Source: Dysgonamonadaceae bacterium
GTDB lineage: Bacteria; Bacteroidota; Bacteroidia; Bacteroidales; Azobacteroidaceae
Reading direction: 5' to 3'
DNA length: 17,653 bases
Assembly (NCBI GenBank): GCA_031284225.1
Contig: JAITAH010000382.1
Coordinates: 1-17,653, forward strand
Positions 10-17,653 of the stretch are shown in pieces. Under the pieces are notes generated by a model that had not been told where the DNA came from, made no database searches, and worked only from the letters and a program-made list of their open reading frames with translations. How positions within the stretch are numbered: position 1 is the stretch's first letter; each line of letters starts with the position of its first letter. Made by a program: the position numbers and the translations under genes.

Positions 10-513
10 TCACTGTCCATCTCCTTTGGGATTGCTCTTCGCTACTAAATCGGCCAAATCGGATGGTTTGAAATTGCCTTTCAAACGGATGACTACCGCT
101 TTTTCTTCGACGGAGAGTATAATTATCAGAATTTCCCTGATGTCCTTTTTTTCTTCTTTAACCAGGAATCGTACAAGATTATCGTTCTCTTTAATATGCA
201 TCAACGTAGCATATTCCTTATCGTCTTTCAGGTTTTTCAGCCGGTTCCAGATTTCCGTCTTTTGCGCGGCGGGACATTCGTCGCTCAACGCTAATAATTC
301 AAAGGATTTCAGGCCTTTCATGCCTTGTAGAGCGTCTTTTCCACCAACGGATACTCCCAGTAATTGGGTGAAAAACATTCCAACCGAACCGATGCTTATT
401 TTTTCGACGTTTTCCTGTTTGGATAACCGGGCAATCTCCTTATCAACGTTTTGCCCGAATATCTGCATACTGAACGCAAAGATAACCACGAATGACACTG
501 CTGTTTTTTTCAT
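10..513 (-). CDS. DUF4252 domain-containing secreted protein
   Basis: A 167-residue protein of unknown function that resembles the DUF4252 family, small exported proteins common in Bacteroidota. What is seen: a signal peptide at residues 1-20 (two lysines, then a hydrophobic stretch ending ...QIFG before QNVDK), no lipobox cysteine, then an alpha/beta region with the usual family pattern: an early statement of 'KISIGSVGMFF', a central charged part rich in Lys and Asp/Glu, and a C-terminal stretch ('VVIRLKGNF...DLADL') like the family's closing strand and helix. It probably acts in the periplasm or outer membrane. In other Bacteroidota such genes often sit beside an ECF sigma factor or a second DUF4252 gene; here the neighbour downstream lies outside the window. 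It is separated from the upstream kinase gene by 214 bases, so it is likely a separate unit. The family assignment is from memory of the pattern, not a search. Confidence 0.75.
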   Translation of the reverse strand: MKKTAVSFVVIFAFSMQIFGQNVDKEIARLSKQENVEKISIGSVGMFFTQLLGVSVGGKDALQGMKGLKSFELLALSDECPAAQKTEIWNRLKNLKDDKEYATLMHIKENDNLVRFLVKEEKKDIREILIIILSVEEKAVVIRLKGNFKPSDLADLVAKSNPKGDGQ

Positions 514-727: not shown

Positions 728-1810
728 CTAAGAAACTTGCTGTTCGATAAAAGCCTTCATTTCCGGCAAGGCGTCTTCGGCGCTTTGCAGCAGTTTGAAC
801 TGCGCTTGGGTACGTATCCAATTGTGTTCGGGATACTGTATTTTGTAGTAGGTATCGCCGTTGATATAGTCCGTCAAGAAGCGCGCGCATTGCATGTAGG
901 GAAACAGCGTGGCGGCGTAGGGCAGGTTGACGATTTCTATTTCCGTCAAAAACGATTTCGCCGATTGCAGATAGCCTTCGGTAAAAGCCTTAAAAATAGA
1001 CAGGTTGAAACGAATCCGATCTAAATCGGGATCGTCTTCCTTTCCGGTATTGGCGGCGGAGCGGAGAAAATCGCCGGTATCCGAAAAGACAAAACTCGGC
1101 ATCACGGTATCCAGATCGATCACACAAAGGATTTCGCCGTTTTCATCGAAAAGGATGTTGTTTACCTTCGTATCGCAATGACAAACCCGTTTGGGGAGTT
1201 TGCCTTCGCGGAACAGCCGTTCGGCTTTGCACATTTCGGCGGAACGTTTTTCAAGTTCGTCGATATAATATTGTACGGAAGCCAGCCGGCCGGCGCTGTT
1301 GGCCGCTACGGCGTCGCGAAGTTGCAGCAAACGAAATTCCATGTTGTGGAAATTCGGAATGGTTTCGCCCAGTTCCACCGAAATATCGGACAGCATTTGA
1401 TGAAAATCGCCGAACGCCAGACCGGCGTACCGCGAATACTGTTCATTCACCTGCTCGCAGGTAACCGAACGGGGAATAAGCACGGAGATTCGCCAATAAT
1501 TGGTTCCGTCGAAGTAATATTTTTTTCCGGAATCGGCCGGAAGGAAGCGCAATACTTTTCGGTCGATATCCCGTTCGCCGCGTTCGGTCAGTTTGCGGCG
1601 GATGTGGGAAGTTACCGCTTCGATGTTGTTTTGCAGCAAATCGACGTCCTGAAAAATGGCGTGATTGATTCGTTGCAGCACATAATCCGGCGCATCGCCC
1701 GCCGTTTGAACCCGATAGGAATCGTTGATGACCCCGTTTCCAAAAGGATTAATTGCCAATACTTTGCCTTCCAAGGCGAAATGGGAAGTAATTTCCAGTA
1801 AATTGTTCAT
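728..1810 (-). CDS. N-acetylhexosamine kinase-like phosphotransferase (APH fold)
   Basis: A cytoplasmic sugar kinase of 360 residues, close to the length of bifidobacterial N-acetylhexosamine 1-kinase (NahK). It has the aminoglycoside-phosphotransferase/choline-kinase layout: an N-terminal lobe with a glycine-containing nucleotide loop ('FGNGVINDSYRV') and 'YVLQRIN' strand, then the catalytic segment HCDTKVNNILF (H211, catalytic D213, N218) and the metal-binding segment 'VIDLDTVMP' (D232/D234). The HxDTKxNN and IDLDTxMPG-type blocks are those of NahK-like proteins, which phosphorylate GalNAc/GlcNAc at C1; Bacteroidota homologues are often misnamed 'mucin desulfatase'. Substrate is inferred, not shown. 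An upstream ATG at 1837 exists, but a promoter -7 element at 1835-1842 would place transcription start inside that extension, so I chose the ATG at 1810. The gene is divergent from the PUL and may process a sugar released by it or by the GH109-like protein. Confidence 0.78.
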   Translation of the reverse strand: MNNLLEITSHFALEGKVLAINPFGNGVINDSYRVQTAGDAPDYVLQRINHAIFQDVDLLQNNIEAVTSHIRRKLTERGERDIDRKVLRFLPADSGKKYYFDGTNYWRISVLIPRSVTCEQVNEQYSRYAGLAFGDFHQMLSDISVELGETIPNFHNMEFRLLQLRDAVAANSAGRLASVQYYIDELEKRSAEMCKAERLFREGKLPKRVCHCDTKVNNILFDENGEILCVIDLDTVMPSFVFSDTGDFLRSAANTGKEDDPDLDRIRFNLSIFKAFTEGYLQSAKSFLTEIEIVNLPYAATLFPYMQCARFLTDYINGDTYYKIQYPEHNWIRTQAQFKLLQSAEDALPEMKAFIEQQVS

Positions 1811-1834
1811 GGTACAATGATTTATTATTCGGCG

Positions 1835-1865
1835 CAAAATTAGTCTAATTTATGGATTCGGACAA
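1835..1865 (-). promoter_or_regulatory. Bacteroidetes-type promoter for the kinase gene
   Basis: On the minus strand TAATTTTG (1842 down to 1835) is an exact match to the Bacteroidetes -7 consensus TAnnTTTG. A partial -33 element TTGTC lies at 1865-1861, giving a spacer of about 18 bases. Transcription would begin near 1828, leaving a leader of roughly 20 bases before the ATG at 1810. No strong Shine-Dalgarno is present, which is normal for the phylum. Confidence 0.5.
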
Positions 1866-1963: not shown

Positions 1964-4900
1964 ATGAAGTATTCACGAAAAAAAGGGTTATTCTGTTTGT
2001 TCCTCTTATTTTTTACGTTAAAAATAAGTGCACAAACAATGGTTAATGGAACGGTTTCCGATGAGAAAGGAGAATCATTAATTGGTGTAAGCATCACCGT
2101 TAAAGGGACTTCTATCGGCGCCGTTACGGATGTAGATGGCGCTTTTGCGATCAACGCTCCGGGGAATGCTACGCTGGTGTTCGGTTATTTGGGTATGAAG
2201 CCAGTGGAAGAAGCAATTAATAACCGGCAAATGATCCATGTAATCATGCGATCAGATAATAACGACTTGGAAGAAGTGGTGGTAATTGGTTATGGAACCG
2301 TGAAAAAACGGGATTTAACAGGCTCGGTTTCTTCCGTTAAAGCTTCTGATATCGATTTGACGGCTTCCGCCTCTATCGGACATGCGTTGAAAGGAAAAGC
2401 CGCCGGATTGAGCGTGATTCAAAACAGTGCGCAACCCGGAGGAGGACTTGATATCCTGATTCGTGGCGCCGGTTCGGTCAATGCCAGTAATAAGCCGTTA
2501 TATATTGTCGATGGCTTTCCTGTCGCACAGTTAGACCCGTTGAGTTCGAATAACGACCGTTTGAATCCGGGAACGCAAAGTGTGTTGAATTTCATTAATC
2601 CGAATGACATCTCTTCCATTGAGGTTTTGAAAGATGCTTCGGCAACAGCTATTTACGGAGCAAGAGCGGCTCATGGCGTTGTGCTGATTACTACCAAACG
2701 AGGAAGTGAAGGGAAAACGACCATCAATTATAATGCTTCCTACGGCGTTCAGGAACATGCCAACATTTTTGATGTTTATAACCTGAACGATTGGATGGTT
2801 GCCAAAAACACCGCAAGTTGGGATTACTGGATGTTTGACAATGCGGTGTATCCGTATGGTTCAAGAACATTGGAAGATGCTATGACCTATCCTAAAAATG
2901 GCGTGGCTTACAAATTACCTTATACCGATACCCAAATCGGCAATGCCGGCGAAGGAACGGATTGGGTCGATTTGATAACCCGGACGGGAAGTATTCAACA
3001 GCACAATCTGAATATTCAAGGCGGAAGCAATCAGACCCGGTTTTTAATGGCTCTTAATTATTTCGATCAGCAGGGAATCATTAAAAATTCGGGATTGCAA
3101 CGATATACCGGAAAATTGAATCTGGATCATACGATTAATAACTATTTGACGGCGGAAGTTAATATTCTTGCTTCCCGGACAGATAATAACAACCGGGCAT
3201 TAGGCGCTGAAAAATGGGAAAAATCGGGTCTGTTGCGCGCGGCGGTACAAATGGGGCCTCACATCCAAGCCATCGACGAAAACGGAAATTATCCCATCAA
3301 TCCTATGCTGCCCACTCAACCCAATCCTTATTCTCTGCTGAATGTGAAAGATGAAGGTCGAATGGATCGTATTTTAGCCAATGCGTCTCTGACCATTAAG
3401 CCTTTGGACGGACTTAGCATTAAACTGAATGGCGGAACGGATATCGCCTATCAAAAACGGAATACATACATGCCTAAATCCACTTTATGGGGGCAGATTT
3501 TCAATGGAAAAGCCGGCATCAGCGCCGGAGAAAACGAACAATACTTGCTGGAAGCTACCGCTAATTACTTGAAAACTATCCGGACGATTCATCGTTTCGG
3601 CTTGTTGGTAGGCGCTTCCCATGAACAATTCACCAACAGTAGCCATTATCTGGAAAATAACGATTTCATCACCGACGCCTTTGAATGGAACAGCATGCAA
3701 TCGGGCACAGGCGTCAAAGGGCTTAATTCCTCTGCCGGAGAAAATAAAATGAAATCTTTTTTTACGCGGATCAATTATACGCTAATGGAACGGTATTTAT
3801 TGACGGCAACGTTCCGTGCCGACGGCGCCAGCGTTTTCGCCAAGAATCATAAATGGGGATATTTTCCGTCCGTAGCGCTTGCGTGGAATGTAACGGAAGA
3901 AAAATTCATGGATAATCTGCGTTCTACTTTCTCTCTCTTAAAAGGGCGTATCAGCTATGGACAAACAGGAAACTCAGATATCGGAGGAAATGCGTTTGCC
4001 GCTTATTATGCGGCTACCGCATGGAATAATGTGGATAAAAGTCAAGTTATCGGCGTCTTTCAGAATCGCTTGGAAAATCCCGATTTGAAATGGGAAACCA
4101 CTACCGAGTTGAACATCGGTTTGGACGTTGGTCTGCTGAATGGGAAAATTTCAGGCTCGTTTGAATTTTATAACCGGGAGATTTCCGATTTATTGAATAC
4201 CCAATCGTTGAATGCCTATCAGCCCATCAGTCAGGTAATAGCCAATATTGGGAAAACGCAAAGCCGGGGGTTTGAAGCCACGATTAATACAAAAAACGTT
4301 ACCAACAAAAATTTCAGTTGGGCGACCGATTTCACATTTTCCACTTACAAAGATCGTTGGCTTGAACGGACGGCGGATTGGAAACCCACTGTTTATCAAA
4401 ATGTCAACGATCCTATCCGTGCTATTTATTCCCGCATAGGGGAAAGAATCTTGCAAACCGGCGAAACGCCTCCGGCCTCGCAGCCGGATTTAAAAGCGGG
4501 ACAAATCGTTATTAAAGACATCGACGGCTATCTGAGGGACAATAATGGCGATCCGGTGGTGGAAAACGGGCGATTTGTTCGCGCCGGCCAACCGGATGGA
4601 ATAATCGATGACGCCGACGTTCAACTGTTAGGCACAACCGATCCCGGATATATCATGGGTTTGAACAACCGATTCCGGTGGAAAAATTTTGATTTCAGTT
4701 TCGACCTGAACGGATTGTTCGACCGTATTATGATGGATCCTACGTATATGGAATTAGGCGCTTCCGCCGATGGAATCGCTCAGTACGGATACAATGGCTT
4801 ACGGGTATTGGATAAACGCTGGATGCCCGAAAAATCATCAACCATCCATCCGAGTTCGTTCTACGGCTGGTCGAATTACGGGTATGGCGACTGGTTTTAT

Positions 4901-5122
4901 CAAAAAGCTTGGTTTATACGGCTTCAAAGTGTAAACCTGGGATATACGGTCCCGATTCGTTCGGCGATGAAAAAAGTGTTTTCGAGTATTCGTATTTATA
5001 TAGACGCCAATAATCTATATACGCTTACGCCTTATACCGGACTGGATCCTGAAACGGACGTCTATGCGGCGGCTTATCCCAATGCACGCACTTATACGAT
5101 AGGTTTTGATATTCGATTTTAA
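1964..5122 (+). CDS. SusC/RagA-family TonB-dependent transporter
   Basis: Outer-membrane transporter that imports glycan fragments in complex with its SusD partner, powered by TonB. The 1052-residue protein starts with a signal peptide (residues 1-24, cleaved after ...KISAQ or just before Q). Next comes a carboxypeptidase-regulatory-like beta-sandwich (about 27-100), then the typical plug start EEVVVIGYGTVKKRDLTGS from residue 103. The SusC/RagA signature follows at about 219-247 (IEVLKDASATAIYGARAAHG... ITTKRG). The rest is a 22-stranded barrel ending in the aromatic residues 'GFDIRF' needed for barrel assembly. There is no STN domain, so it is not of the FecA-like, anti-sigma-controlled type; this agrees with control by the HTCS at the end of the locus. 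The next gene starts 23 bases on, so the two are clearly co-transcribed. Substrate cannot be told from sequence. Confidence 0.96.
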   Translation: MKYSRKKGLFCLFLLFFTLKISAQTMVNGTVSDEKGESLIGVSITVKGTSIGAVTDVDGAFAINAPGNATLVFGYLGMKPVEEAINNRQMIHVIMRSDNNDLEEVVVIGYGTVKKRDLTGSVSSVKASDIDLTASASIGHALKGKAAGLSVIQNSAQPGGGLDILIRGAGSVNASNKPLYIVDGFPVAQLDPLSSNNDRLNPGTQSVLNFINPNDISSIEVLKDASATAIYGARAAHGVVLITTKRGSEGKTTINYNASYGVQEHANIFDVYNLNDWMVAKNTASWDYWMFDNAVYPYGSRTLEDAMTYPKNGVAYKLPYTDTQIGNAGEGTDWVDLITRTGSIQQHNLNIQGGSNQTRFLMALNYFDQQGIIKNSGLQRYTGKLNLDHTINNYLTAEVNILASRTDNNNRALGAEKWEKSGLLRAAVQMGPHIQAIDENGNYPINPMLPTQPNPYSLLNVKDEGRMDRILANASLTIKPLDGLSIKLNGGTDIAYQKRNTYMPKSTLWGQIFNGKAGISAGENEQYLLEATANYLKTIRTIHRFGLLVGASHEQFTNSSHYLENNDFITDAFEWNSMQSGTGVKGLNSSAGENKMKSFFTRINYTLMERYLLTATFRADGASVFAKNHKWGYFPSVALAWNVTEEKFMDNLRSTFSLLKGRISYGQTGNSDIGGNAFAAYYAATAWNNVDKSQVIGVFQNRLENPDLKWETTTELNIGLDVGLLNGKISGSFEFYNREISDLLNTQSLNAYQPISQVIANIGKTQSRGFEATINTKNVTNKNFSWATDFTFSTYKDRWLERTADWKPTVYQNVNDPIRAIYSRIGERILQTGETPPASQPDLKAGQIVIKDIDGYLRDNNGDPVVENGRFVRAGQPDGIIDDADVQLLGTTDPGYIMGLNNRFRWKNFDFSFDLNGLFDRIMMDPTYMELGASADGIAQYGYNGLRVLDKRWMPEKSSTIHPSSFYGWSNYGYGDWFYQKAWFIRLQSVNLGYTVPIRSAMKKVFSSIRIYIDANNLYTLTPYTGLDPETDVYAAAYPNARTYTIGFDIRF

Positions 5123-5145: not shown

Positions 5146-6678
5146 ATGAAAACAACGATTAAATATCTATCCATCTTGTTCTTATTAACAATAATGTCGC
5201 ATTGCGGAGATTTGGAACCGGTCAATTACAATGAAATCAATCCGTCCATATTTCCCAAAACCGAAGAAGATTTGCAGGCATTGGTCATGTCGTGTTATTA
5301 TCCTTTGCGCGGCAGTTGGTGGGACGGTATCAATCACAATTCAGAACGAGGACAAATGTTTGTGAATGATTGCTGTACCGAAATTCTGGCAGGAAAATTC
5401 GGCGCTCAGAAAATGTGCCACGAGCTGTCTTTTATCGAATCCAATATCGAAGTAACCTGTTTTTATTATGTGCGAACGAGCGAACGGTCGGACTATTCCG
5501 ATGGTTTTTGCAATAAAATCAGCCGCTGTACACTGACGATCGACGCCATTGAAAAAAGCGATATAAGTCCGGAAAAGAAAGACAAGTACATTGCCGAGGT
5601 CCGTTGCGCCAGAGCCTATTTGAGTTATATTTTGTTTGACATGTATGGCCCGCTGGCGGTCGCTCCCATTGAAGTATTGAAAGAGCCTTTGAAAGAAGTT
5701 TCTTTGCCTCGCCTGTCCAACGAAGAAATGGTAAAGTTCATCGAAGAAGATTTGATTTTTGCCGGAGAACATTTGCCTTTTCCCAAACAAGCGGAATACG
5801 GAAGATTCAGCCGCGGATTGGCCAAAACGCTTTTGATCCGGTTGTATCTGCACGAAACGGTTCACGACCGAACGTATTATAACAAGGTAGAAATCCTTGC
5901 CAGGGAATTGATGACTTCGGAATACGGCTACGATTTGCTGCCGGAATATACTACTTTGTTTGAATTTGCCGGAATGACCAGAAATAATCCGGAGTATATT
6001 TTTGTTATTCCTTCGACCATAGAAGGCCCGAACCTGTCGCAATGGCAAATGATGGTCATGCCGCCCGCTTCGGATAATTTTCCGATCGGATGGGCTACCG
6101 TACAAAGTACCTGGTGGTTTTACGACACGTTTGAACCTGCCGATACGCGGAAAACCTATATGATTACGGAATATACCAATGGCGGAGTGGTTTACAATCG
6201 CCTGAATCCCAGCGAATTCATCGACTTGGGGCCGTTGCCTCAAAAATATCAAATCGAGATTGTCGGTAATACCAATACGAATTTGGATATTGTACAATAC
6301 CGGTATCCCGAAGTATTGTTGTCGCTGGCGGAAGCGATTGTGATGAAACCGGGCGGAAGCGTAACTCAAGAAGCGGTCGATTTGATGAACCGGATACGAA
6401 TCCGGGCGCATTTGGCAGAGAAAAAAGTGTCGGATTTTCTGACCCATGAAGCATTTATCAACCAATTGCTTAGAGAAAGAAGCCATGAATTTTGGTGTGA
6501 AAACGGTCAGTATCGAGCCGACTTAATTCGCTTCGACAAACTCTACGACCGTGTCTTGGAATTGAACAACGGCATTGCGCCGTATGCCTCTAAAAACAAA
6601 TATTTGTATCCGCTTCCCCTGTCGGTCATTGTCGATGGGAAAGGACAAGTGAAGCAAAATCCGGGTTACGCCGAATAA
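5146..6678 (+). CDS. SusD/RagB-family nutrient-binding lipoprotein
   Basis: Surface lipoprotein that forms the lid of the SusC channel and binds the glycan. The protein is 510 residues, normal for the family. A type II signal peptide ends in lipobox MSHC with lipidated C20, and the acidic residues just after it (GDLEP) fit the Bacteroidetes surface-export signal. SusD hallmarks in order: an N-terminal segment with 'EEDLQALVMSCYYPLRG' (about 42-58), TPR-like helices with 'AEVRCARAYLSYILFDMYGPLAV', 'LAKTLLIRLYLHE', 'YRYPEVLLSLAEAIVM', 'LLRERSHEFWCENGQYRADLIRF', and the closing 'YLYPLPLSVI...QNPGYAE'. It lies 23 bases after susC and 38 bases before the DUF4832 gene. It contains more cysteines than usual in its N-terminal half (DCCTE, CHE, CFYY, CNKISRC), which may form disulfides. 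Confidence 0.96.
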   Translation: MKTTIKYLSILFLLTIMSHCGDLEPVNYNEINPSIFPKTEEDLQALVMSCYYPLRGSWWDGINHNSERGQMFVNDCCTEILAGKFGAQKMCHELSFIESNIEVTCFYYVRTSERSDYSDGFCNKISRCTLTIDAIEKSDISPEKKDKYIAEVRCARAYLSYILFDMYGPLAVAPIEVLKEPLKEVSLPRLSNEEMVKFIEEDLIFAGEHLPFPKQAEYGRFSRGLAKTLLIRLYLHETVHDRTYYNKVEILARELMTSEYGYDLLPEYTTLFEFAGMTRNNPEYIFVIPSTIEGPNLSQWQMMVMPPASDNFPIGWATVQSTWWFYDTFEPADTRKTYMITEYTNGGVVYNRLNPSEFIDLGPLPQKYQIEIVGNTNTNLDIVQYRYPEVLLSLAEAIVMKPGGSVTQEAVDLMNRIRIRAHLAEKKVSDFLTHEAFINQLLRERSHEFWCENGQYRADLIRFDKLYDRVLELNNGIAPYASKNKYLYPLPLSVIVDGKGQVKQNPGYAE

Positions 6679-6716: not shown

Positions 6717-8138
6717 ATGAAAAAAATCGAATTAATTCTTCTCTTTTTAGTGAGTTTCTTTGGACTAAGCTGTGGTTCTCATCATTCAACAGAAAATATT
6801 GTTCCAAAAAAAGAAACGATTGAATACAAATCGATAGACGATAAATTTCCGAATCCCGAAAGAGGTTTTTACAAATATTCGGATTGTAATCTGGGAACAG
6901 GAACAGGAATACTTGACGAAAATACCCTAAAAGCCTATCGAGGGAATAATATTTCCTTGTTGTTCAGGTATTTTTATTTAAAGAATTTCAGGGATAAGCC
7001 AATATCCGACAAAGCGTTGGAGGATTTCGACAAAGATATGGCTATCATTCGGAAAGCCGGAATGAAATGTGTGTTGCGTTTTGCTTATTCCAGCGCTATC
7101 AACGAGCCGGACGCACCGCTGAATACGATTTTGCAACATTTAGATCAACTGAAACCCCATTTGGAGAAAAATGCCGATGTGATAGCTGTAATGCAAGCCG
7201 GTTTTATCGGCTCTTGGGGCGAATGGTACTATACGACCAATGGGCTGAACACCTCCGGAAATCGCTATATGACGCTCAATAAAATACTGGAAACATTGCC
7301 GCCCAACCGAATGGTGCAAGTGCGAACGCCGGCGTATAAAAAAGAATTTGTACAACGGACGACGCCATTGAAGGAAGAAGAAGCTTTTTCTACTCAAAAC
7401 ATTGCACGAATTGCACATCATAACGATTGTTTTTTGGCAAGTACGAATGATTATGGGACTTATCAAGACATAGAAGCGGATAAAGATTATTTGAACAAAG
7501 ATTGCCTGTATGTTCCTATCGGTGGAGAAACCTGTCCGCCCGACGGCGTTGCTCCTGCCGACGGCTTGAAAGCCTATAACGAAATGCGCCGCTTGCGTTT
7601 CAGTTTTCTGAACGAAGATTACTACCGGAATGTGAATAATTTGTGGATAGAAAACGGATATATGGATAAAATAATCAGAGAGTTGGGTTACCGCTTTCAT
7701 CTTGTTTCGGGAGAATATACGACGGAAGTTTCTCCATTGGGCGCTTTTTCTGCCCGGATTGTTTTGAAAAATGCGGGATTTGCTTCTTTATACAACAAAC
7801 GACCGGTGGAATTGATACTCAAAAATACCGCTTCGAACGAGCTTTATAAAGTCAAATTAGAAATAGAGCCTCGCCTTTGGAAGCCCAATACGGAAAATAT
7901 AATTGACGCTACGATCGGTATCCCTGCCGAAATGACCAAAGGAGAATATGCACTCTATTTAAATTTACCGGATGACGCGGAAACTTTACAAACCAATCCC
8001 GATTATTCCGTTCGCTTTGCCAACGAAAATGTGTGGGAGGCAAAAACCGGTTATAACAATCTTTTGCTGACGGTAACCGTGAAAGACAATAGCAGCACGC
8101 CCACTTTTTCAGGAAATTTGTTTTTTCTTAAAAAATAG
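6717..8138 (+). CDS. DUF4874/DUF4832 lipoprotein, putative TIM-barrel glycosidase
   Basis: A 473-residue exported protein of a family with no activity I can name. Signal peptide with lipobox GLSC and lipidated C19. The N-terminal domain (about 40-200) matches DUF4874: 'FPNPERGFYKYSD', 'LLFRYFYLKNFRD', 'IRKAGMKCVLRFAYS', and the block 'GFIGSWGEWYYTTNG' holding E169. The second domain (about 205-350) matches DUF4832, with 'FLASTNDYGTY', 'PIGGETCPPDG' (E271) and a conserved 'LRFSFLNEDYY'. The C-terminal 110 residues look like a beta-sandwich. The barrel-type motifs with two glutamates about 100 residues apart resemble clan GH-A retaining glycosidases (acid/base after strand 4, nucleophile after strand 7), so E169 and E271 are candidate catalytic residues; this is inference. 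Placed directly after susD, it is the best candidate for the surface or periplasmic enzyme that first cuts the target glycan. It could instead be a binding protein. Confidence 0.8.
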   Translation: MKKIELILLFLVSFFGLSCGSHHSTENIVPKKETIEYKSIDDKFPNPERGFYKYSDCNLGTGTGILDENTLKAYRGNNISLLFRYFYLKNFRDKPISDKALEDFDKDMAIIRKAGMKCVLRFAYSSAINEPDAPLNTILQHLDQLKPHLEKNADVIAVMQAGFIGSWGEWYYTTNGLNTSGNRYMTLNKILETLPPNRMVQVRTPAYKKEFVQRTTPLKEEEAFSTQNIARIAHHNDCFLASTNDYGTYQDIEADKDYLNKDCLYVPIGGETCPPDGVAPADGLKAYNEMRRLRFSFLNEDYYRNVNNLWIENGYMDKIIRELGYRFHLVSGEYTTEVSPLGAFSARIVLKNAGFASLYNKRPVELILKNTASNELYKVKLEIEPRLWKPNTENIIDATIGIPAEMTKGEYALYLNLPDDAETLQTNPDYSVRFANENVWEAKTGYNNLLLTVTVKDNSSTPTFSGNLFFLKK

Positions 8139-8177: not shown

Positions 8178-9434
8178 ATGAACAAACAATTTCTTTTTTT
8201 ATTGATTGCTGCTTGCGGATTTTTTACCGCTAATGCGCAAATTACGGTTGATGGCATCGTAAACGATTGGGAAACTGTGCCTGTCTTGAGTGAACCGGGC
8301 GTTTTTCCTTTTGCAAAAGTCGTTTCCGATGACGCCCGTTTTTATTTTCTGGTTACGCTCAACAACGATAACACGTTCGATCCGAATGCGTGGTTTACCG
8401 TTGATTTGTACATTGATGCTGATTTCAGTAGTGAAACCGGCTATAGACAATGGATTTACACAGGATCGGGCATTGACTATTTGGTGCAAGGGACTGATTT
8501 GAACAAATTTACCGGCGCTAACGGTACCGACAGTTGGTCGTGGACTACGACGGGATCAAGCATTGATCGTGCCTATTCTGCCGATGGACGCTCGGCTGAA
8601 CTGTCAATTGCCGCTGCCGGCTATACCGCTGTGGCATTGGCTGAAACATGGGGTGTGGCATTGGGGCCATACTATTTCGATAATCCGGGAGGTGGCGACC
8701 CAAGCCTTTTTATGCAATCTGTGGAGTGGAATTTTACTAACCGAAAAGTTTTTGTGGTCAAACCGCGCACCGAAATCTCGTTGAACGGTAGCGTCGAACT
8801 CATAGCGGCAAATGCTTTCTATCACCCGTTTATGAAAGCCCAGAATATTGTAGAATATCTCGATTTTCAATCCGGCGATTGGGCGGCTCAAAATACGTTG
8901 CATTGGGCTGCGTGGGCTGTAAATCTTTCGGCGCCGGCAACTTTCAATTTCAAAATGACGACCCAAAGTACCGCCAGCGGTAAGGCAAGGCTCACACTTG
9001 TGGATAGGACGACCAATGCGGTGGTAAAAACCTTTGACGATGTTTGGTACCCTGTCAACAACCATTTTGACGAAAACGACTATGGAACGCTCGACTTGTC
9101 TGACGTTCCTGCCGGAAAATATATGCTTAAACTTACTCACCCAACCGATTGGGATACATTTTTGAAAGTATCGAAAGTTACTCTGACAAATCTCAGTTCA
9201 GATGCAATAAAACCCGTGGATGTCTTGGAAAATGTAACGGTAATAGCGCGTGAAAAGGGATTTACGTTAGCAAGCGAAAAAGCTGTCAACGTATATGTTT
9301 ATTCGGTAGAAGGAAAAATTATTTCTAATTACAAACAAGTAAATTCAATCAATCAACCACTTAATTCGGGCTTTTATTTATTGAATATTCAATCGAATGG
9401 AAAACAAATCGTCCGAAAAATCGCTGTAAAATAA
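8178..9434 (+). CDS. T9SS-exported protein with CBM9/DOMON-like domain
   Basis: A 418-residue secreted protein, probably glycan-binding. Signal peptide at residues 1-20 (ends FFTANA before QITVDG), no lipobox. Domain 1 (about 21-195) starts with 'ITVDGIVNDWETVPV' and continues 'DARFYFLVTLNN...WFTVDLYIDAD', the pattern of CBM9/DOMON-like beta-sandwiches that bind sugars through aromatic residues; many Trp and Tyr are present. Domain 2 (about 215-340) is a further beta-sandwich with the Trp-rich segment FQSGDWAAQNTLHWAAWAV, perhaps another binding module. The last 75 residues resemble a type A T9SS sorting domain: 'VNVYVYSVEGKII', 'LNSGFYLLNIQSNGKQIVRKIAVK', although the usual Asn-Pro near its start is missing. 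So it would cross the outer membrane by the type IX system and be released or anchored at the surface. No catalytic motif was recognised. Start and spacing (39 bases after the previous gene) fit the operon. Confidence 0.72.
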   Translation: MNKQFLFLLIAACGFFTANAQITVDGIVNDWETVPVLSEPGVFPFAKVVSDDARFYFLVTLNNDNTFDPNAWFTVDLYIDADFSSETGYRQWIYTGSGIDYLVQGTDLNKFTGANGTDSWSWTTTGSSIDRAYSADGRSAELSIAAAGYTAVALAETWGVALGPYYFDNPGGGDPSLFMQSVEWNFTNRKVFVVKPRTEISLNGSVELIAANAFYHPFMKAQNIVEYLDFQSGDWAAQNTLHWAAWAVNLSAPATFNFKMTTQSTASGKARLTLVDRTTNAVVKTFDDVWYPVNNHFDENDYGTLDLSDVPAGKYMLKLTHPTDWDTFLKVSKVTLTNLSSDAIKPVDVLENVTVIAREKGFTLASEKAVNVYVYSVEGKIISNYKQVNSINQPLNSGFYLLNIQSNGKQIVRKIAVK

Positions 9435-9461: not shown

Positions 9462-11237
9462 ATGAAACATTTTAAGCAAATTATGATGATTACAGCCGTA
9501 ACAGCGCTATTGTTTGTAGCCTGTAATAACGGCGAAGAACCCATCAACGGTTCTGAAGGAAAAGCTAAAATTGAACAGTTGGCCGTATCTCCGTCAACGA
9601 ATCTGAAGTATGGCGATGCGGTTACGCTAATCGGTATTTTATCGGATGAAACAGGACTTCGTTCCTATACCGTTAAAATCAGTAATGCAAGCGGGGACAT
9701 TTATGAACAGACACAAATGTTGACCGGAAAAACATTTAATTTGAACGAAGCGTTGGTTATTCCGCTTCCTCCCAATGCCGTTGCCGGAAATTTAACAATC
9801 AGTTTGACCGTTAAAAATACAGGCAATCAATTGACCAGCCAGGAAATAGAACTTAAAAATGTCAGTCTTCCGAATTTCCCCAAATTGTATTTGGTTTTAA
9901 ATGGTACGGCTTACGAAATGGTAAAAAATGGCGACGTCTTCGAATTTGAAGATTTTGTTGCGGCAGGAGCTACCGGAAAAATTTATGCCAATGCCGATAA
10001 AACCGGTATTTTCTGGGGATCGGAAAATGGCGCGGTGAAGGTGTTGGGCGCGAATGATATTACGTTCGGATTGGCTGTTGAAGAATATTTCAAAATTTCG
10101 TTCAATGCAGTAAGTTTCCAATTAACCAAAGGAAATCCGCAAACATGGCAACCGGCCTCAGGCAATGATTTGTACATTTTGGGAACCATTTCGGGACATT
10201 GGCAAGATGGCGACATTTCCGTAGAAAAAACTAAAATGAAAATGACGGAATATTCGTTGGGAAGCCGCAGAATGTGGGAATGGGCGCCGCCTGCAATCGA
10301 AAATACGGACGATCCCGAACTGACCTGTTATGGAAATACGGTAGCAGGCATTTTCCGTTTCAAAAAAGGCAATCAGTATGTAACCTATAACGGCGGACAA
10401 ATCGTTACGGGAGCCGATAACAAGGATAACAGTTTTGTTTTGTCGGCTCCGGGACAGTTTCATTTTCGTGTTTTGGCTGAGGCGAATAGCATTACAAGCG
10501 TGCGTGTTTTCGACGAAGGACAAGCGAAATCCTTGGAATACAAAAACGGCGAAATTCTGCTGAACGGCGTGCTTGCAACACCTTCTATTTCTTTTGCCGG
10601 ACAGACAATGAGTTTGTTAACCGGTAACTATTTTGTTTATCAAAGCACGACCGGTATCGGACTGACAAAAAATGCCGCCGTGAATGCCTCCGGCATTGAT
10701 TTGAAGAATTTTTATGCCGATCCCGACGTGTTTACGGGCAGCGGCAACAGCACATGGCAAGTGAAACAGGACGGGTCTTTCTACGTTCGTATCGACGCTT
10801 TTTCGGGACACGTTTATCTGCGCGAAGAAAGCGGCTATCCGAATGTGATTTATCTCGACGGTTGGTGCTGGAAAAAATATCCGACAGACCCGCGGAATAA
10901 CTGGGATGTTACCACTTCTACCTCTTTGTATCGGGTAGGAACGTCCCATGTGTATGAAGCTACCATTTATGTTTTGCCTTGGGGCGGCGATTTCAAATTG
11001 TTTGCAAGTCCCGAACAAACGCAAAGAATGATAAAATCAAAGTATTTTGAAGGCATTAATCCCATGGACGAATCGGGTATTAAATTCCCTATTCCTTCTG
11101 ATCCGGGCGCTTATTATAAAGTAAGCGTGGATTTGAAAGACGGATTTACGTGGAATGAAGAGGCGTTAGATGGCGACAATTACACACTTGTTCCGACCAA
11201 CGGTAAAAAATTCACAATAACATTTACTGCAATATAA
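9462..11237 (+). CDS. SusE/SusF-like multidomain surface glycan-binding lipoprotein
   Basis: A 591-residue lipoprotein (lipobox FVAC, lipidated C21; acidic residues follow in NNGEEP, fitting surface export). It lies at the usual SusE/F place in a PUL. An N-terminal Ig-like domain (about 30-135) is followed by repeated beta-sandwich modules. Sandwich signs: 'LYLVLNGTAYEMVKNGDVFEF', 'YFKISFNAVSFQLTKG', 'DLYILGTISGHWQDGD', 'GSFYVRIDAFSGHVYLREE', and the aromatic C-terminal module 'VIYLDGWCWKKYP' ... 'ATIYVLPWGGDFKLFASPEQ'. From memory it resembles the DUF5016/DUF5121/DUF5125 type of SusE-positioned proteins found in GH31/GH66 loci, but I cannot confirm the exact family. Role: non-catalytic binding of the substrate at the cell surface before SusCD uptake. 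Starts 27 bases after the T9SS gene; a long 162-base gap with a palindromic repeat follows. Confidence 0.8.
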   Translation: MKHFKQIMMITAVTALLFVACNNGEEPINGSEGKAKIEQLAVSPSTNLKYGDAVTLIGILSDETGLRSYTVKISNASGDIYEQTQMLTGKTFNLNEALVIPLPPNAVAGNLTISLTVKNTGNQLTSQEIELKNVSLPNFPKLYLVLNGTAYEMVKNGDVFEFEDFVAAGATGKIYANADKTGIFWGSENGAVKVLGANDITFGLAVEEYFKISFNAVSFQLTKGNPQTWQPASGNDLYILGTISGHWQDGDISVEKTKMKMTEYSLGSRRMWEWAPPAIENTDDPELTCYGNTVAGIFRFKKGNQYVTYNGGQIVTGADNKDNSFVLSAPGQFHFRVLAEANSITSVRVFDEGQAKSLEYKNGEILLNGVLATPSISFAGQTMSLLTGNYFVYQSTTGIGLTKNAAVNASGIDLKNFYADPDVFTGSGNSTWQVKQDGSFYVRIDAFSGHVYLREESGYPNVIYLDGWCWKKYPTDPRNNWDVTTSTSLYRVGTSHVYEATIYVLPWGGDFKLFASPEQTQRMIKSKYFEGINPMDESGIKFPIPSDPGAYYKVSVDLKDGFTWNEEALDGDNYTLVPTNGKKFTITFTAI

Positions 11238-11399: not shown

Positions 11400-12989
11400 A
11401 TGAAACGATTATTATCTCTCGCTCTTTGCCTTCTTTCTTTTCTATCTTTCCGGGCGCCAACCGGATATACGACGGTGGTAACCATGGAACCCGGCGAATA
11501 TTGGTGGGGAGGCGCCACCGGCTTAGGCGCAAAGATGCCTTTTTTGGAACCCGTTAACCTCTTCGATTTATCTTCTCAAAACGAGAATAATCAAGTTGCG
11601 CCGCTTTTTCTGTCCAATCAGGGCCGGTATGTTTGGAGTGATTCTCCTTTTCGTTTTGAGATAAAAGATCGTACGGTTTTTATCCATTCTCTGTATGAAA
11701 AAATAACGGTACAACAGGGCGGGAAAACGTTGAAGGACGCCTATTTGACGGCTTCCGGAAAATATTTTCCGGCGTCGGGCCTTTTACCCGATTCACTGTT
11801 TTTTGTGATGCCGCAATACAATACCTGGATCGAATTGATGTACAATCAAAATCAGGCCGATGTGCTGAATTATGCCCGAAGCATCGTAAAAAACCGGTTT
11901 CCCGAAGGCGTTTTGATGATTGATGATAATTGGCAAAAATACTACGGATGCTTTGAGTTTAAACCCGACCGGTTTCCCAATCCCAAAGAAATGATTGAAC
12001 AGTTACATGCAATGGGATTCAAAGTCATGCTCTGGGTTTGTCCGTTTGTAAGCGCCGACAGCCCCGAATTCCGCTTTTTGAGAAACGAAGGATATTTGCT
12101 GAAACGGAAAGGTAGCCAGGCGCCGGCGATGATCGAGTGGTGGAACGGCGTCAGCGCTTGCTTTGATTTGACTCATCCCGATGCCGCCGCCTATCTTGTT
12201 TCGCACTTAAAAGCGTTGCAGACGGAATATGGTATCGATGGTTTTAAATTCGACGCCGGCGATAGTCAGTTTTATAATCCTCAATACATCGACAGTTACC
12301 AAAAAGAAGCTCAATCGGTGGATCATACGAAGGCCTGGGCAAAAATCGGACTGGAATTTCCGTTCAACGAATACCGCGCCTGTTGGCAAATGGGCGGCGA
12401 AGCGCTGGTGCAGCGGTTGGGCGACAAGGATTATTCGTGGAAAGCGGTCGAAATGTTGATCCCCGACATGTTGGCCGCCGGGTTGCTTGGTTATGCCTAT
12501 ACCTGTCCGGACATGATTGGCGGCGGACAGTTCTCGTCTTTTTTGGGAATCGAGAGCGACCGTTTTAATCAGGAATTGATCGTTCGATCGGCGCAAGTAC
12601 ATGCCCTGATGCCTATGATGCAGTTTTCGGTCGCCCCGTGGCGCATTTTGAGTGCGGAAAATTTGGAGATTATTCGTCAAGCTGCGTTATTGCATCAGCA
12701 AATGGGCGCGTATATTCTGCAATGCGCCAAAGAATCGGCTATCACCGGCGAACCGGTTATCCGGCATTTGGAATATGCGTTCCCGAACGAAGGGTTTGCC
12801 GAGTGTAAAGACCAGTTCATGTTGGGAAACAACTATTTAGTGGCTCCGGTGGTTACGCCGGCGAATATCCGCACGGTGAAACTTCCGAAAGGGAAATGGA
12901 AAGATGACGGGGGCGCTGTTTATACGGGCGGAAAAACATTAACGTTTCATGTTCCTCTGCAACGCATCTTGTATTTTGAAAAATTGTAA
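11400..12989 (+). CDS. Glycoside hydrolase family 31, MYORG/alpha-galactosidase-like
   Basis: An exo-acting retaining alpha-glycosidase, probably periplasmic. 529 residues, with a Sec signal peptide (about 1-18; the Cys10 context LALC is not a good lipobox). The N-terminal beta domain carries 'EYWWGGATGLGAKMPF'. The TIM barrel shows the GH31 pattern: 'GVLMIDDNWQKYYG' (strand 2), 'AMGFKVMLWVCPFVS', 'YGIDGFKFDAGDSQF' with nucleophile D285, and 'QRLGDKDYSW' with acid/base D342 (equivalent to the WxGDN Asp of maltases). 'CPDMIGGGQF' follows, and the C-terminal beta domain ends the protein. The FKFDAGD nucleophile block and the short N-terminal domain recall the MYORG/KIAA1161 branch and Pedobacter alpha-galactosidase, so alpha-galactosidase is my first guess; alpha-glucosidase or alpha-xylosidase cannot be excluded. 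Same strand as the operon, but set apart by the repeat-bearing gap. Confidence 0.92.
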   Translation: MKRLLSLALCLLSFLSFRAPTGYTTVVTMEPGEYWWGGATGLGAKMPFLEPVNLFDLSSQNENNQVAPLFLSNQGRYVWSDSPFRFEIKDRTVFIHSLYEKITVQQGGKTLKDAYLTASGKYFPASGLLPDSLFFVMPQYNTWIELMYNQNQADVLNYARSIVKNRFPEGVLMIDDNWQKYYGCFEFKPDRFPNPKEMIEQLHAMGFKVMLWVCPFVSADSPEFRFLRNEGYLLKRKGSQAPAMIEWWNGVSACFDLTHPDAAAYLVSHLKALQTEYGIDGFKFDAGDSQFYNPQYIDSYQKEAQSVDHTKAWAKIGLEFPFNEYRACWQMGGEALVQRLGDKDYSWKAVEMLIPDMLAAGLLGYAYTCPDMIGGGQFSSFLGIESDRFNQELIVRSAQVHALMPMMQFSVAPWRILSAENLEIIRQAALLHQQMGAYILQCAKESAITGEPVIRHLEYAFPNEGFAECKDQFMLGNNYLVAPVVTPANIRTVKLPKGKWKDDGGAVYTGGKTLTFHVPLQRILYFEKL

Positions 12990-13025: not shown

Positions 13026-16000
13026 ATGATAAAACTCAGATTTGTCTTCTTTTTCGGTCTTTTCTGCTTTCCTTGGCTTGGCGGCGGATTGGTTCATTCG
13101 GAAGAACTGCATTTTTATCATCTTACGCGCAGCGAAGGATTACTCCATGACAACGTTACTTGCGTCGCTCAGGATTCGATCGGTTATATCTGGTTCGGCA
13201 CTCACCGCGGATTAAACCGCTATGATGGATATTCAATTGATTCGTACCGGTATGACAACGGTAAAATTAATTCCGTGTATTACAACAGGGTCTATAAAAT
13301 CGAAATTACGGGAAATTTCCTCTGGATGGCCACCGAAGCCGGCATCGTCTGTTTCGATATTTACAACAAACAATACATTGATGTCGCAATCAATGATCCC
13401 GGCAATCTTGATTTTTATTCACAAGTACGATATCTCAAAAAAGGGTACGACGGTCTGATGTGGTTTTTTACCGATCGCAACCATATTCGTCTGGGAGAAA
13501 TACATTATGATGCCGGTAAAAACAAATGTGTCGTTGCTCCGCGCAAAATAGGCAACGAATATGGCTTTGTTTCTCAAGACAATAATCCGAAAGTGGCTTT
13601 CGACGAAACCGGAAATGTATGGATTTCAGGAAACGATTATATAAGCTGTTACGGCAGAGGAAGCGACGGAGAACTTTATTTTGCCGGATGTACCGAACAA
13701 AGAATCGGAAGGGACGTCAAAGAAATGAATTACGAAACCGGCAATTTGTGGATCGCCTATTGGGATAAGATTGATAAATACCATGTTTCGAACTCGACGG
13801 AAATAGAAAAAACAAAAAGTATTCCTTATTCGTGGCGAAATATTTCCACGTTTTACCTGAACGAGAATTCCATTTGGTTAGGCTCGGATAATGGGATTCT
13901 TCAAATAACCGTAAAAGAAGATGATGGACCGTTGATGGTCGAACATCGACATTTGCCGTTAGACGCAAACTCGATGGGAAACGCCCCGAATAATATTTTT
14001 CTCGACCGTAACAACAACATCTGGGTTTCGACATGGGGCGCCGGTGTGGCTTATGCTAATACCAATCCTAAATTCTTTCAAACGATTACTTATAACCCGC
14101 TTCAATCTAAAGGGACCATCGCGTCGGAATTTGTCAGTTGCATTCATAAGAGTTCGGATGGATATGTTTATTTGGGAACAAAATTCGGCGGAATCAGTCG
14201 CCTGAAAAGTAAAAACAAAAAAGACGTGGAAATTTTCTGTACGACTTCTCAACTATTGCCGGCGGTAACAAGCATCCACTCGGATGATGAAACGGTTTTT
14301 GCGGCCGTAAACAATACAATCGTACTTATCGACAAGCAAAGCAAACACGTCAAAGATTTATTGCATACCGCCCGGCATGTTTTCTGGATTGAATTTGACC
14401 GTTTCAATCGTTTGTGGGCGGCTACCCATGCAGGACTGGAATGTTTTGAAAAACAAAACGGACAATGGAAAAAAACCCGAACCTTGACAAGCGCCTCATC
14501 ATTCAAATTATCGACCGATTTGCTTCATAATATTTATTCAAACAAGGAAAAAAACGAACTGTTGGTTACGTCGGCGTCAGGAATGAATCGAATTAGATTT
14601 AAAGAGAACGGTGATATTCAACAAGTGATTCATTACCGGGCAAAAGAAAACGATTTGAACAGTCTGAGCAGTAATTTTCTGTGGCCGATCGACAGGCAAA
14701 ACGACTCGGTGTACTGGATTGGGTCGATGGGAAACGGATTGAACCGGTTGACATTAATTGATAAACCCGATGGCGTTTACGACTATTCTTGCGATGTTTA
14801 CGGCAAAGAATCGGGAGCTCCGTCCGGCGATATAGAAAGTCTTGCTGTCGATAAATACGGAAATGTCTGGTGCGGAGGTTTTTCGCTCGCCTGTTTCGAT
14901 ACTAAGCTCAACCGTTTCAATGTGTTTGATATCAACGATGGATTACAGAGCTATATGTTTGGAACTTCATCGTCGTGTAAAGACAGCGACGGCACGTTAT
15001 ATTTCGGTGGAGCGAAAGGGATGAATTATTTCATGCCGGCCCCTAATATGATGGATTCAAATGCTTATCCGGTTTTCTTTTCCCGCGTGTATATCAACGG
15101 CAAATTGGTCGATTCGGATATCGAGTATTCTAAATCATTGACTCTTAAATATCCGGACAATAATTTCACGCTCGATTTTACATCTTTATTGTTCAACACC
15201 GGACAGCATATCCGATATCGTTACCGTTTAGACGACTATGATAGCGAATGGCGTTACATCGAAATGGGAAAAGAACCGAAGGTTTCTTATCAGAAATTGC
15301 CTTACGGAAATTACCAACTGATGGTCGAATCCGGCGGATGGAAAGATTGGAGAGGAAATCATTCGATCCTGAATCTTTATGTGCCGCCGCCTTTCTGGTG
15401 GTCGTGGTATGCGAAAACGACTTATCTGCTCATGGGTTTGGGTATCGTTTTTTTGCTTTTCAACTCCTTTTTGCATTGGATGCAAATGAAGCAAATCATT
15501 TCCCTTCAAACAGAACGAGAACGATTCTTTACCGATGTATCCCACGAATTTAAAACGCCTTTGAGTATTATCAACTCGGCCATTGCCGAATTGAACGAGG
15601 AAGAAACCGCTGTACAGGGAAACAAACATTTTACGCTTATCCAACGAAACAACAATAAACTCCTTAAACTGATTAATGAACTTCTTGATTTTCACCGCGC
15701 CGACGGCGAAAAAGCGCATTTGAAAACCACCTGTACGTCCGTCCGGGATTTCATTATGCAAATTTATGACGAATTTTCGGCCTGGTCTGCTTCTTCCGGT
15801 ATCTCTATGAGGCTTTCCTTGCCGGAAGAAGATATCCGGTTATGGCTGGACGAGGAGCGTTTGGGGAAAATTATTACAAATATCTTGTCCAACAGTATTC
15901 GTTACACCGAATCCGGCGGAACGATTGATGTGAACGTTTCAACCGGTAATGTGCGGGACGTAATTCCTTATTATGAATCCTCATTCCGGTCTTTGGACAG

Positions 16001-17132
16001 TTTGATTTATAATAATCATCTGATTATCAATGTTCGAGATACGGGCGTAGGGATTCCGCCGGCATCGCTTCCGCTAATTTTTGAACGCTTCTATCAAGTC
16101 AACACCAAACCCGGCCAACGGTTGGGTTCCGGTATCGGATTAGCGCTTGTCCATTCTCTCGTTCGGCTGCATCATGGAGGAATTATCCTCAGCAGTAAAA
16201 TGAATGAAGGTACGGAAATGATTGTTGCTTTGCCCTTAGACGACGGATATTTGAGAAAAAACGAAAAAGTAGATGAAAGCTCGTTTGAATTAGGCGTATA
16301 TCTTTCGGATTATGCGTTAGAATATGAACAATTGGAATGGGATAACCGGACGGAAGAAGCGATGGAAAATAAACCTACCCTTTTGCTGGTGGACGATAAT
16401 CAGGAAATTTTGATGATTTTGCGCGAACATTTTAAGAACAATTATAACACGATTTTAGCGTTCGACGGCGAAGAAGCGTTCCAAAAGTGCAATACTCAGT
16501 TTCCCGATTTGGTCATTTCCGATGTGATGATGCCGAAAATGAATGGTATTGAACTCTGCGCCAATCTGAAAAAACATCTGCGAACTTGTTTTATCCCGGT
16601 CATTTTGCTGTCGGCTAAATCGCTTGTCGAACATCAGATAGAAGGTGTTGAAAGCGGCGCCGACGCCTATATTCCCAAACCATTCGATATCCGGCTTCTG
16701 AAAGCCACCGTGCAAAATTTGCTGACACGCTCCGGACAACTGAAAGATTTTAATCCGGCAAAAGCCATTATCAACCGGCGAAAAGAAATTTTAGACGAAA
16801 AACGACAGGCCTTTTTCCTCCAGTTAACCGGTTTAGTGGAAGCAAACATGAATAATCCCCATTTTTCCATCGATCATCTTTGCCTCGAATTAGGCATGAA
16901 CCGGTCGAAACTGTACAGTACCATCAAGGAAATCACCGGAATGACATTGGGACATTACATCCTCCAATTACGCTTGGACAAAGCCGGCGAACTTTTGAAA
17001 ACAACCGATATAACGGTAACCGAAACCTGCTACCGCGTGGGTATCGACAGCCCTTCTTATTTCAGTAAAGCGTTCAAAGCGCAATTCGGCGTTTCGCCGA
17101 TAGAGTTTGCCAAAACGGAAAATGTTTCTTAA
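13026..17132 (+). CDS. Hybrid two-component system sensor-regulator (HTCS)
   Basis: A 1368-residue inner-membrane protein that joins a periplasmic sugar sensor, histidine kinase, receiver and DNA-binding domain in one chain. Order: signal peptide or first membrane segment (about 1-25); two-bladed-propeller-type sensor with reg_prop repeats (about 27-690, e.g. '[20 protein letters not shown]', '[10 protein letters not shown]'); Y_Y_Y domain (about 713-785); membrane helix (about 799-816). HisKA follows with '[11 protein letters not shown]' (phospho-acceptor H840), then HATPase with N-box N956, 'DTGVGIPP' (from D1005) and '[12 protein letters not shown]'. The receiver has acidic D1123/D1124, phospho-acceptor D1166 in '[13 protein letters not shown]' and K1218. 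The AraC-type HTH at about 1270-1365 shows both helix-turn-helix units. All catalytic residues are present, so it should be active. Expected role: bind a breakdown product of the glycan and activate the susC promoter. It starts 36 bases after GH31 and has its own candidate promoter. Confidence 0.96.
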
Positions 17133-17653
17133 TCGGCAAATTTCAATCCTTGCAGTTTATCCCATGCGCCGCGCGTAAAATCGGGGATTTCAACCGGAGC
17201 GCCGTTGTTGCGGGCGGAGATTTCGGATAATTCTACGATGCACGACCATTCGGCGGCGTCATACACATCCTCGTCCAAGGGCAAGCCGTTGCGCAGGCAA
17301 TAAATCAGGCGGTAATCCATAATAAAATCCATTCCGCCGTGGGCGATGCTTCCCAATTCGGCCGCCGTTTTGCCGGCTTGTTTGTAGAACGGATGTTCAT
17401 AAACGGCCAACAGCGAATCCATTTCCTGCTGGTTCAAGCGGGTGTGCGCATTCGGGTCGAGAGCAATCTGGCGAATCGGGTATTTTTGTGCAAAACCTTT
17501 GGTTCCGCTGATGGTATGCAAGCGGTTGTAGGGTCGCGGACTGGTTACATCGTGTTGAATCATAATCGTTTTACCCTTTTGCGTTTTGATGAGGGTCGTG
17601 TTCATATCGCCCAGCGCGTAAGGTTGAGCGGCTTCGGGAGAGTCTTTGCCGAA
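17129..17653 (-). CDS. GH109-like Gfo/Idh/MocA family protein, C-terminal part (cut by window edge)
   Basis: The open frame runs without a stop to the right edge, so the visible 174 residues are the C-terminal part of a longer gene; the internal ATG at 17605 is not a believable start, since frame-matching family sequence (YALGD before MNTT) lies ahead of it. Matches to GH109 / Gfo-Idh-MocA proteins include '[17 protein letters not shown]', '[11 protein letters not shown]', '[20 protein letters not shown]' and '[19 protein letters not shown]'. GH109 enzymes use bound NAD to hydrolyse terminal alpha-GalNAc through an oxidation-elimination route. The nucleotide-binding and catalytic part is outside the window, so activity (and any signal peptide) cannot be judged; a plain sugar dehydrogenase is possible. 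Its stop codon overlaps the HTCS stop by four bases. Confidence 0.82.

Follow-up and report, generated by a model that had tools for sequence, protein, structure and literature searches.

The question raised by this locus is what the DUF4874/DUF4832 lipoprotein encoded next to susD does for the cell. The DNA analyzed (the window) is the whole stretch of 17,653 nucleotides from a Dysgonamonadaceae bacterium, and a first-pass annotation, made from its letters alone, had read the protein (the window protein) as an undescribed glycoside hydrolase of clan GH-A that makes the first cut at the cell surface. The window protein is very probably a glycoside hydrolase, which is the best reading of it. 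We put the probability at about one half (0.5) that it is a lipid-anchored glycosidase in a PUL for a Pel- or galactosaminogalactan-type chain of alpha-linked Gal/GalNAc, cutting in the periplasm and probably in endo mode.

Genes of the locus

The window contains an adjacent susC/susD pair, a glycosidase and a sensor-regulator, the combination by which a PUL was recognized. The order on the plus strand is susC, susD, DUF4874/DUF4832, a 418-aa type IX secretion (T9SS) protein, a SusE-position lipoprotein, GH31 and a hybrid regulator, with gaps of 23 to 162 bp. The genes are:

728..1837, minus strand: N-acetylhexosamine 1-kinase-like protein, APH family (PDB 4ocj, E 7.9e-70)
1964..5122, plus strand: SusC-type TonB-linked outer-membrane transporter (TIGR04056, E 6.1e-252)
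5146..6678, plus strand: SusD-type lipoprotein (PF07980), two acidic residues at +2 to +7
6717..8138, plus strand: DUF4874/DUF4832 lipoprotein, predicted glycoside hydrolase (473 aa, ATG start; ORF list, Pfam and structure model)
8178..9434, plus strand: 418-aa protein with a C-terminal signal for type IX secretion (TIGR04183), no other domain recognized
9462..11237, plus strand: lipoprotein of 591 aa in the SusE position, probably binding glycans at the surface, two acidic residues at +2 to +7 (no Pfam match; relatives in 21 of 80 loci)
11400..12989, plus strand: GH31 of the solved GH31 alpha-galactosidase group (best PDB match 8j53, E 6.7e-216, then 8j50 and 8j52)
13026..17132, plus strand: hybrid two-component sensor/regulator (PF07494, PF07495, HisKA, HATPase, receiver, AraC HTH)
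17129..17653, minus strand: 3' portion of a gene of GH109 (the alpha-N-acetylgalactosaminidase family), truncated at the window edge (PF21252; PDB 6t2b, E 9.3e-41; 2ixa, E 3.3e-24)

The placement directly after susD was confirmed, with 38 bp between the two genes. GH31 had been taken as the only recognizable glycosidase of the locus, which is corrected here by the C-terminal end of GH109 at the window edge; GH109 is, as far as known, likewise an exo-enzyme family. The regulator and the convergent GH109 gene share four bases at their stop ends (17129-17132). An interval of 126 bp separates susC from the start of the APH-family gene, and a DUF4252 gene (window 10-513, minus strand) lies downstream of the latter. 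For the 418-aa T9SS protein the PDB gave no match with E up to 1; relatives of this protein are present in 5 of the 80 loci that were fetched for comparison. The sole PDB match of the SusE-like protein (E 0.75) was treated as chance.

Conserved acidic residues

The scores of the window protein exceed both curated Pfam cut-offs. DUF4874 (PF16173) spans residues 46-207 (E 6.9e-50; 169.2 bits, cut-off 30.1) and DUF4832 (PF16116) spans residues 231-436 (E 1.8e-64; 217.9 bits, cut-off 29.2). In Pfam hmmscan at E up to 1 these were the only matches, and GH114, GH135, GH166 and GH191 were not among them. The database search listed or scored 5051 relatives, and the nearest named ones among the matches listed are from Tannerella, Dysgonamonadaceae and Prevotellaceae MAGs. 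At least Bacteroidota, Ignavibacteria, Calditrichaceae, Actinomycetota and Streptococcus carry DUF4832. In addition, an Ackermannviridae phage protein named DUF4832 (BFVD A0A8S5R645) matches the structure model with E 1.7e-16 and is a candidate phage depolymerase. The features of the window protein used below are:

6771..6773, plus strand: C19, the lipobox Cys, followed by GSHHST (no acidic residue at +2 to +7)
6855..7682, plus strand: predicted (beta/alpha)8 barrel, residues 47-322 (structure model and fold comparison)
7221..7223, plus strand: E169, in the loop that follows strand beta4, putative general acid (invariant in 94 of 94 locus sequences and in 240 of 240 listed relatives)
7425..7427, plus strand: D237, immediately past beta6, third candidate among the invariant acids (94 of 94; 240 of 240)
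7527..7529, plus strand: E271, immediately past strand beta7, putative base or nucleophile (94 of 94; motif in 239 of 240)
7683..8081, plus strand: C-terminal beta-strand domain, residues 323-455 (structure model)

The first-pass annotation was accurate in its description of the letters: the DUF4874/DUF4832 reading frame has E169 within SWGEWYY and E271 within GGETCPP, and the lipobox Cys, C19, is preceded by LS. Both glutamates also persist across divergent clades. Only four of 60 Asp/Glu positions (D154, E169, D237 and E271) are invariant in 94 sequences, consisting of 93 ORFs from the 80 loci plus the window protein, a set that is biased for E169, although not for E271, because one of the two patterns that fetched the loci contains E169. 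E169 and E271 are both kept in 35 of 35 aligned relatives, hand-chosen from the best 120 of 5051, and in all 47 sequences of a further set (A2). Two database searches that used no E169 pattern, the second with a query (L081) only 27% identical to the window protein, gave the same picture: E169 and D237 are invariant in 240 of 240 proteins (the best 120 of each search), and the motif WGE-H[ND]D-[GD]GE was present in 120 of 120 and 119 of 120 among the matches listed, the exception (P0235) being without that stretch. In the second clade a fast alignment seemed to show Asp in place of E271, but its columns had shifted: the motif is kept in 119 of 120, and when 12 sequences were realigned by a slower method Glu stood at this position.

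In a remote sister family, 118 of 120 listed members show W-x-E, then FDDS and then GGE; P0292 and P0293 fall outside the pattern. Judged from their order, these motifs would be equivalent to those of E169 and E271. A member of this family (L050) scores below the Pfam cut-off for DUF4832, and PF16116 was found in 3 of its 120 listed relatives. Conservation as a whole does not single out an active site, because by a crude count conserved polar residues are equally dense on the two faces of the barrel (12 of 96 positions on the catalytic face and 7 of 56 on the other). The case for catalysis thus rests on the particular acids.

Predicted fold

The model of the window protein is a TIM barrel followed by a beta domain, with a pLDDT of 90.9, and in this respect confident structure models agree with the earlier impression of a barrel. 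E271 stands immediately past beta7 (268-270) and E169 nine residues past beta4 (156-160). The rows shown by VIA-align are glycoside hydrolases, foremost GH5-type and GH14 enzymes; GH5 enzymes and GH14 beta-amylases are equal in structural score, at 7-13% identity in the rows shown. The model has the (beta/alpha)8 barrel of clan GH-A and its fold is compatible with that clan, but GH5 and GH14 tie in score, and a GH42 profile gave no match, this profile consisting of only five sequences (two of seven loci had no usable frame). GH14 proteins gave no match in the 17 genomes searched, and there was no solved sequence relative of the window protein in the PDB at E up to 10. The Foldseek lists also contain TIM barrels that are not glycosidases, for example sugar epimerases and KDO8P synthase. 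The families that cleave Pel or galactosaminogalactan were absent from the best 50 rows of each structural list and may be present further down.

One of the VIA-align rows, 7upv, is a beta-amylase-like protein whose title gives it a non-catalytic role. The window protein could likewise be a glycan-binding protein built on a dead barrel, in line with its position after susD, which is typical of binding lipoproteins. The available portions of PMC12345266, PMC7112168 and PMC7480376 tell of no activity for a DUF4832 protein of Bacteroidota. However, the acids after beta4, beta6 and beta7 are invariant across divergent clades, the export signal for surface display is absent (see below) and a streptococcal DUF4832 protein, SIR_1591, has been reported to be active. 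We regard a purely binding role as very unlikely.

Cellular location

Acidic residues after the lipobox Cys mark the surface lipoproteins of Bacteroidota (PMC5080379; PMC6222051). The window protein lacks this acid-rich export signal. At positions +2 to +7 it has no acidic residue, and the SusD and SusE-like lipoproteins of the window have two each. The same difference was found among relatives. At least two acidic residues at these positions were present in 6 of 69 DUF4832 lipoboxes from the best 120 matches of the first search and in 10 of 101 from the best 120 of the second clade, counted only where a lipobox was found with a home-made pattern, which was unmatched in 51 of 120 and 19 of 120 proteins and which may in a few have settled on a Cys before the true one. 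The corresponding values were 4 of 24 for DUF4832 proteins of SusD-bearing loci, 21 of 30 for SusD and 16 of 16 for SusE-like proteins (pattern unmatched in 17 of 41, 5 of 35 and 6 of 22, respectively). Because the signal is missing in the DUF4832 protein and present in SusD and SusE-like proteins, the enzyme is probably placed on the periplasmic side.

A surface enzyme for the first cut, as first proposed, thus does not fit the signal, which is absent here and in most lipobox-bearing relatives but present, where a lipobox was found, in most SusD and in all SusE-like proteins. The same enzyme might still act on the surface under a different export signal in this lineage. PULs usually have a surface endo-enzyme, and the window has no other recognized endo-enzyme. 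In addition, the export consensus is known to differ from genus to genus (PMC5080379). Against this, SusD and SusE-like proteins of the same loci carry the acidic signal that most DUF4832 proteins lack, and the work outside the cell could be done, where it is present, by the T9SS-tailed sister family. This alternative is unlikely in our view, although it is the one we would place first among the alternatives.

The sister family (L050:13653-14945 and relatives) occurs in 8 of the 80 loci, in four of them beside or near GH31. A T9SS tail (PF18962) was counted by eye in 34 of 120 listed members, and such members may act outside the cell where they are present. No member of the family was recognized in the window.

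Substrate suggested by the neighboring genes

The neighbors of the window protein point to a substrate for several reasons. First, the window GH31 aligned to 8j53 over residues 21-529 of 529, and MYORG and YicI rank below 8j53, 8j50 and 8j52. These three GH31 alpha-galactosidases are taken here to prefer alpha-1,4-galactobiose. MYORG itself acts best on Gal-alpha-1,4-Glc and does not turn over Gal-alpha-1,4-Gal (PMC9491548), a point against the reading preferred here. Secondly, the APH-family protein BT4240 of B. theta is a GalNAc kinase, and GH109 includes alpha-N-acetylgalactosaminidases (both PMC11992087). Third, similar genes recur in the 80 loci. The clusters found were SusC (41 loci), SusD (34), DUF5009 (22), SusE-like (21), GH31 (17), GH109 (14), SIS (AgaS-like; 9), sugar-phosphate isomerase/PIG-L (9), PfkB (8), NahK-like (7), GH36 (7), KbaZ (5) and DeoR (4), each named from one representative; these neighbor counts are lower bounds, as ORF picking dropped the DUF4832 ORF from its cluster at some loci (for example L019, L054, L067, L076 and L078). 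The Pfam matches to AgaS and KbaZ are presumed to indicate galactosamine catabolism. Any of seven GalNAc/alpha-Gal marker clusters was found in 38 of the 80 loci and none in 42; for the four strictest markers (GH109, SIS, NahK-like or KbaZ) the numbers were 24 and 56. Thus, about half of the loci are silent on a Gal/GalNAc substrate, some of their contigs being short. Three of five plasmid-collection records had no annotated feature in the stretch examined.

Lastly, co-location was counted in 40 genomes, drawn from 42 of the 80 loci (L016 was left out, and two loci are in one genome); most of these are named isolates or have long contigs. Within 20 kb of DUF4832 were found 16 of 46 GH109 genes (0.60 expected), 11 of 18 GH31-like genes (0.28 expected), 6 of 6 KbaZ genes (0.07 expected) and 5 of 23 kinase genes (0.31 expected), where the genes are those listed by the searches, the reference is 53 strong DUF4832 matches with weaker partial ones omitted, the expected values assume even placement and the loci were chosen after their neighborhoods had been seen. 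Since the genomes were fetched via DUF4832 and include close kin, they are not independent, and a Poisson tail would not be a true probability. For example, three Barnesiella genomes account for half of the six KbaZ genes, and three Rufibacter genomes and one Sabulibacter genome have the same arrangement. Seven further genomes, selected for their neighbors, gave 5 of 7 for KbaZ and 3 of 4 for the kinase. Taken together, the GH31, kinase and GH109 neighbors are proposed to point to a glycan of Pel or galactosaminogalactan type, with Gal/GalNAc in alpha linkage.

Two further observations concern genes found with DUF4832. A DUF5009 membrane protein (cluster c3, 22 of 80 loci, e.g., L055:11777-12889) recurs beside it; we take DUF5009 to be kin to amino-sugar N-acetyltransferases, which would fit re-acetylation of galactosamine. 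In Bacteroides finegoldii (L082:14872-18966), DUF4874/DUF4832 is fused to GH3 and an Fn3-like domain in a protein of 1365 aa, near GH16 and SusC/SusD genes; this fusion favors a glycosidase.

The same neighbors would also suit a glycoside hydrolase for host glycans, acting on mucins, globosides or Forssman-type glycans at their alpha-GalNAc or Gal-alpha-1,4-Gal termini. Many relatives come from oral or gut Bacteroidales by record title. In B. theta, GH109 and a GalNAc kinase have a mucin role, and its GH109 also cleaves the Forssman disaccharide (PMC11992087). However, DUF4832 lies beside GalNAc-type genes in Flavobacteriaceae, Cytophagales, Ignavibacteria and Calditrichaceae as well. To our knowledge these taxa have no tie to animal hosts. 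Nor was a sialidase, fucosidase, GH20 or other dedicated beta-hexosaminidase named in the window and the scanned representatives of the larger clusters, although the GH3 of L082 could include such activity. Host glycans are on balance an improbable target.

It could also be supposed that the enzyme serves an unrelated, possibly beta-linked plant glycan and that the GalNAc-type neighbors are incidental. GH5 endoglucanases give the best structural scores, a DUF4874-DUF4832-dockerin protein is present in a rumen cellulosome (PMC7480376) and the distant relative with the GH3 fusion is next to a GH16 gene. These points are countered by the alpha-glucan enzymes of GH14, which tie in structural score, and by the GH31 alpha-galactosidase kin, GH109 and KbaZ genes, which co-locate far above expectation. 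A plant glycan is thus considered quite unlikely.

Proposed mechanism

The reading preferred here, a periplasmic glycosidase for galactosamine-type chains, would work as follows. The glycan would be captured at the surface by SusD and the SusE-like lipoprotein, perhaps together with the T9SS protein, and SusC would import fragments. The DUF4832 enzyme, anchored at the periplasmic face of the outer membrane, would cut these fragments, probably in endo mode. Catalysis would fall to a pair on its barrel, E169 past beta4 and E271 past beta7; D237 is the third conserved acid there, and the fold would be completed by the C-terminal beta domain. GH31 would then take off alpha-Gal and GH109 alpha-GalNAc, and the kinase would phosphorylate GalNAc in the cytoplasm. 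A Glu/Glu pair on a GH14-like barrel provides a precedent for cutting alpha-1,4 bonds; GH14 enzymes invert. D237 is an alternative catalytic partner because the known galactosaminidases use Asp and Glu.

A broader proposal is offered tentatively: DUF4832 would found a glycoside hydrolase family cutting alpha-1,4-linked GalNAc/GalN/Gal exopolysaccharides, and the PUL of the window would eat Pel or galactosaminogalactan, with a periplasmic cut and the sugars passing to GalNAc catabolism. If this is true, the biofilm matrix of bacteria and fungi is a food of Bacteroidota, the DUF pair, for which 5051 relatives of the window protein were listed or scored, gains a function, and the family is a possible source of new antibiofilm enzymes.

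Comparison with known systems

The protein had been called an undescribed glycoside hydrolase. The hydrolase part is supported by the fold, the conserved glutamates, the PUL context and SIR_1591, and the word undescribed applies only in part, as SIR_1591 was reported in 2025. SIR_1591 of Streptococcus intermedius is a DUF4832 protein encoded beside pel genes, and the purified protein disrupts aggregates of Pel (alpha-1,4-GalNAc); it has a predicted TIM barrel resembling beta-amylases and beta-galactosidases, and its deletion gave no aggregation phenotype (PMC12345266). Glycosidase activity has thus already been claimed for the family, on an indirect assay, and the word "catalytic" is absent from the main text of that report. 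DUF4832 genes adjoin pel operons of streptococci and clostridia (PMC7112168), and DUF4832 is also named in PMC6258164. What is new here is the suggested substrate, galactosamine-type chains, for a DUF4832 PUL. No PUL for galactosaminogalactan or Pel was found in the open literature searched, to which most subscription journals do not belong.

SIR_1591 and the window protein are alike in the DUF4832 label, the TIM barrel with a C-terminal beta domain, the beta-amylase-like fold matches and the alpha-1,4-GalNAc context, their kinship being judged from the label and the described architecture. They differ in that SIR_1591 is from a Gram-positive organism, has a transmembrane anchor and belongs to a Pel synthesis operon, whereas the window has a Bacteroidota uptake locus. 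The endo-alpha-1,4-galactosaminidases of GH114, GH135, GH166 and GH191 are also barrel enzymes for Pel or galactosaminogalactan, but they use an Asp nucleophile and a Glu acid/base (PMC12054363), and the window protein has E169, D237 and E271 as invariants. GH14 beta-amylases and GH5 enzymes differ in that no sequence kinship with them was found and their substrates are alpha-1,4-glucan or beta-glycans.

At the level of the locus, the PUL BT4240-50 of B. theta is similar in its SusC/SusD pair, GH109 alpha-GalNAcase and APH-type GalNAc kinase, and unlike the window in its M60-like peptidase and GH2 for mucin; the only DUF named in the main text of its report is DUF1735 (PMC11992087). The GH31 of the window aligns nearly full length with 8j53 of the GH31 alpha-galactosidases 8j50, 8j52 and 8j53, and their activity is predicted for it. 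A Paludibacter MAG from a woodchip bioreactor has a susC-susD-unk-unk-unk-GH31 locus (PMC11653725), which, compared by listed order only, has the same gene order as the window.
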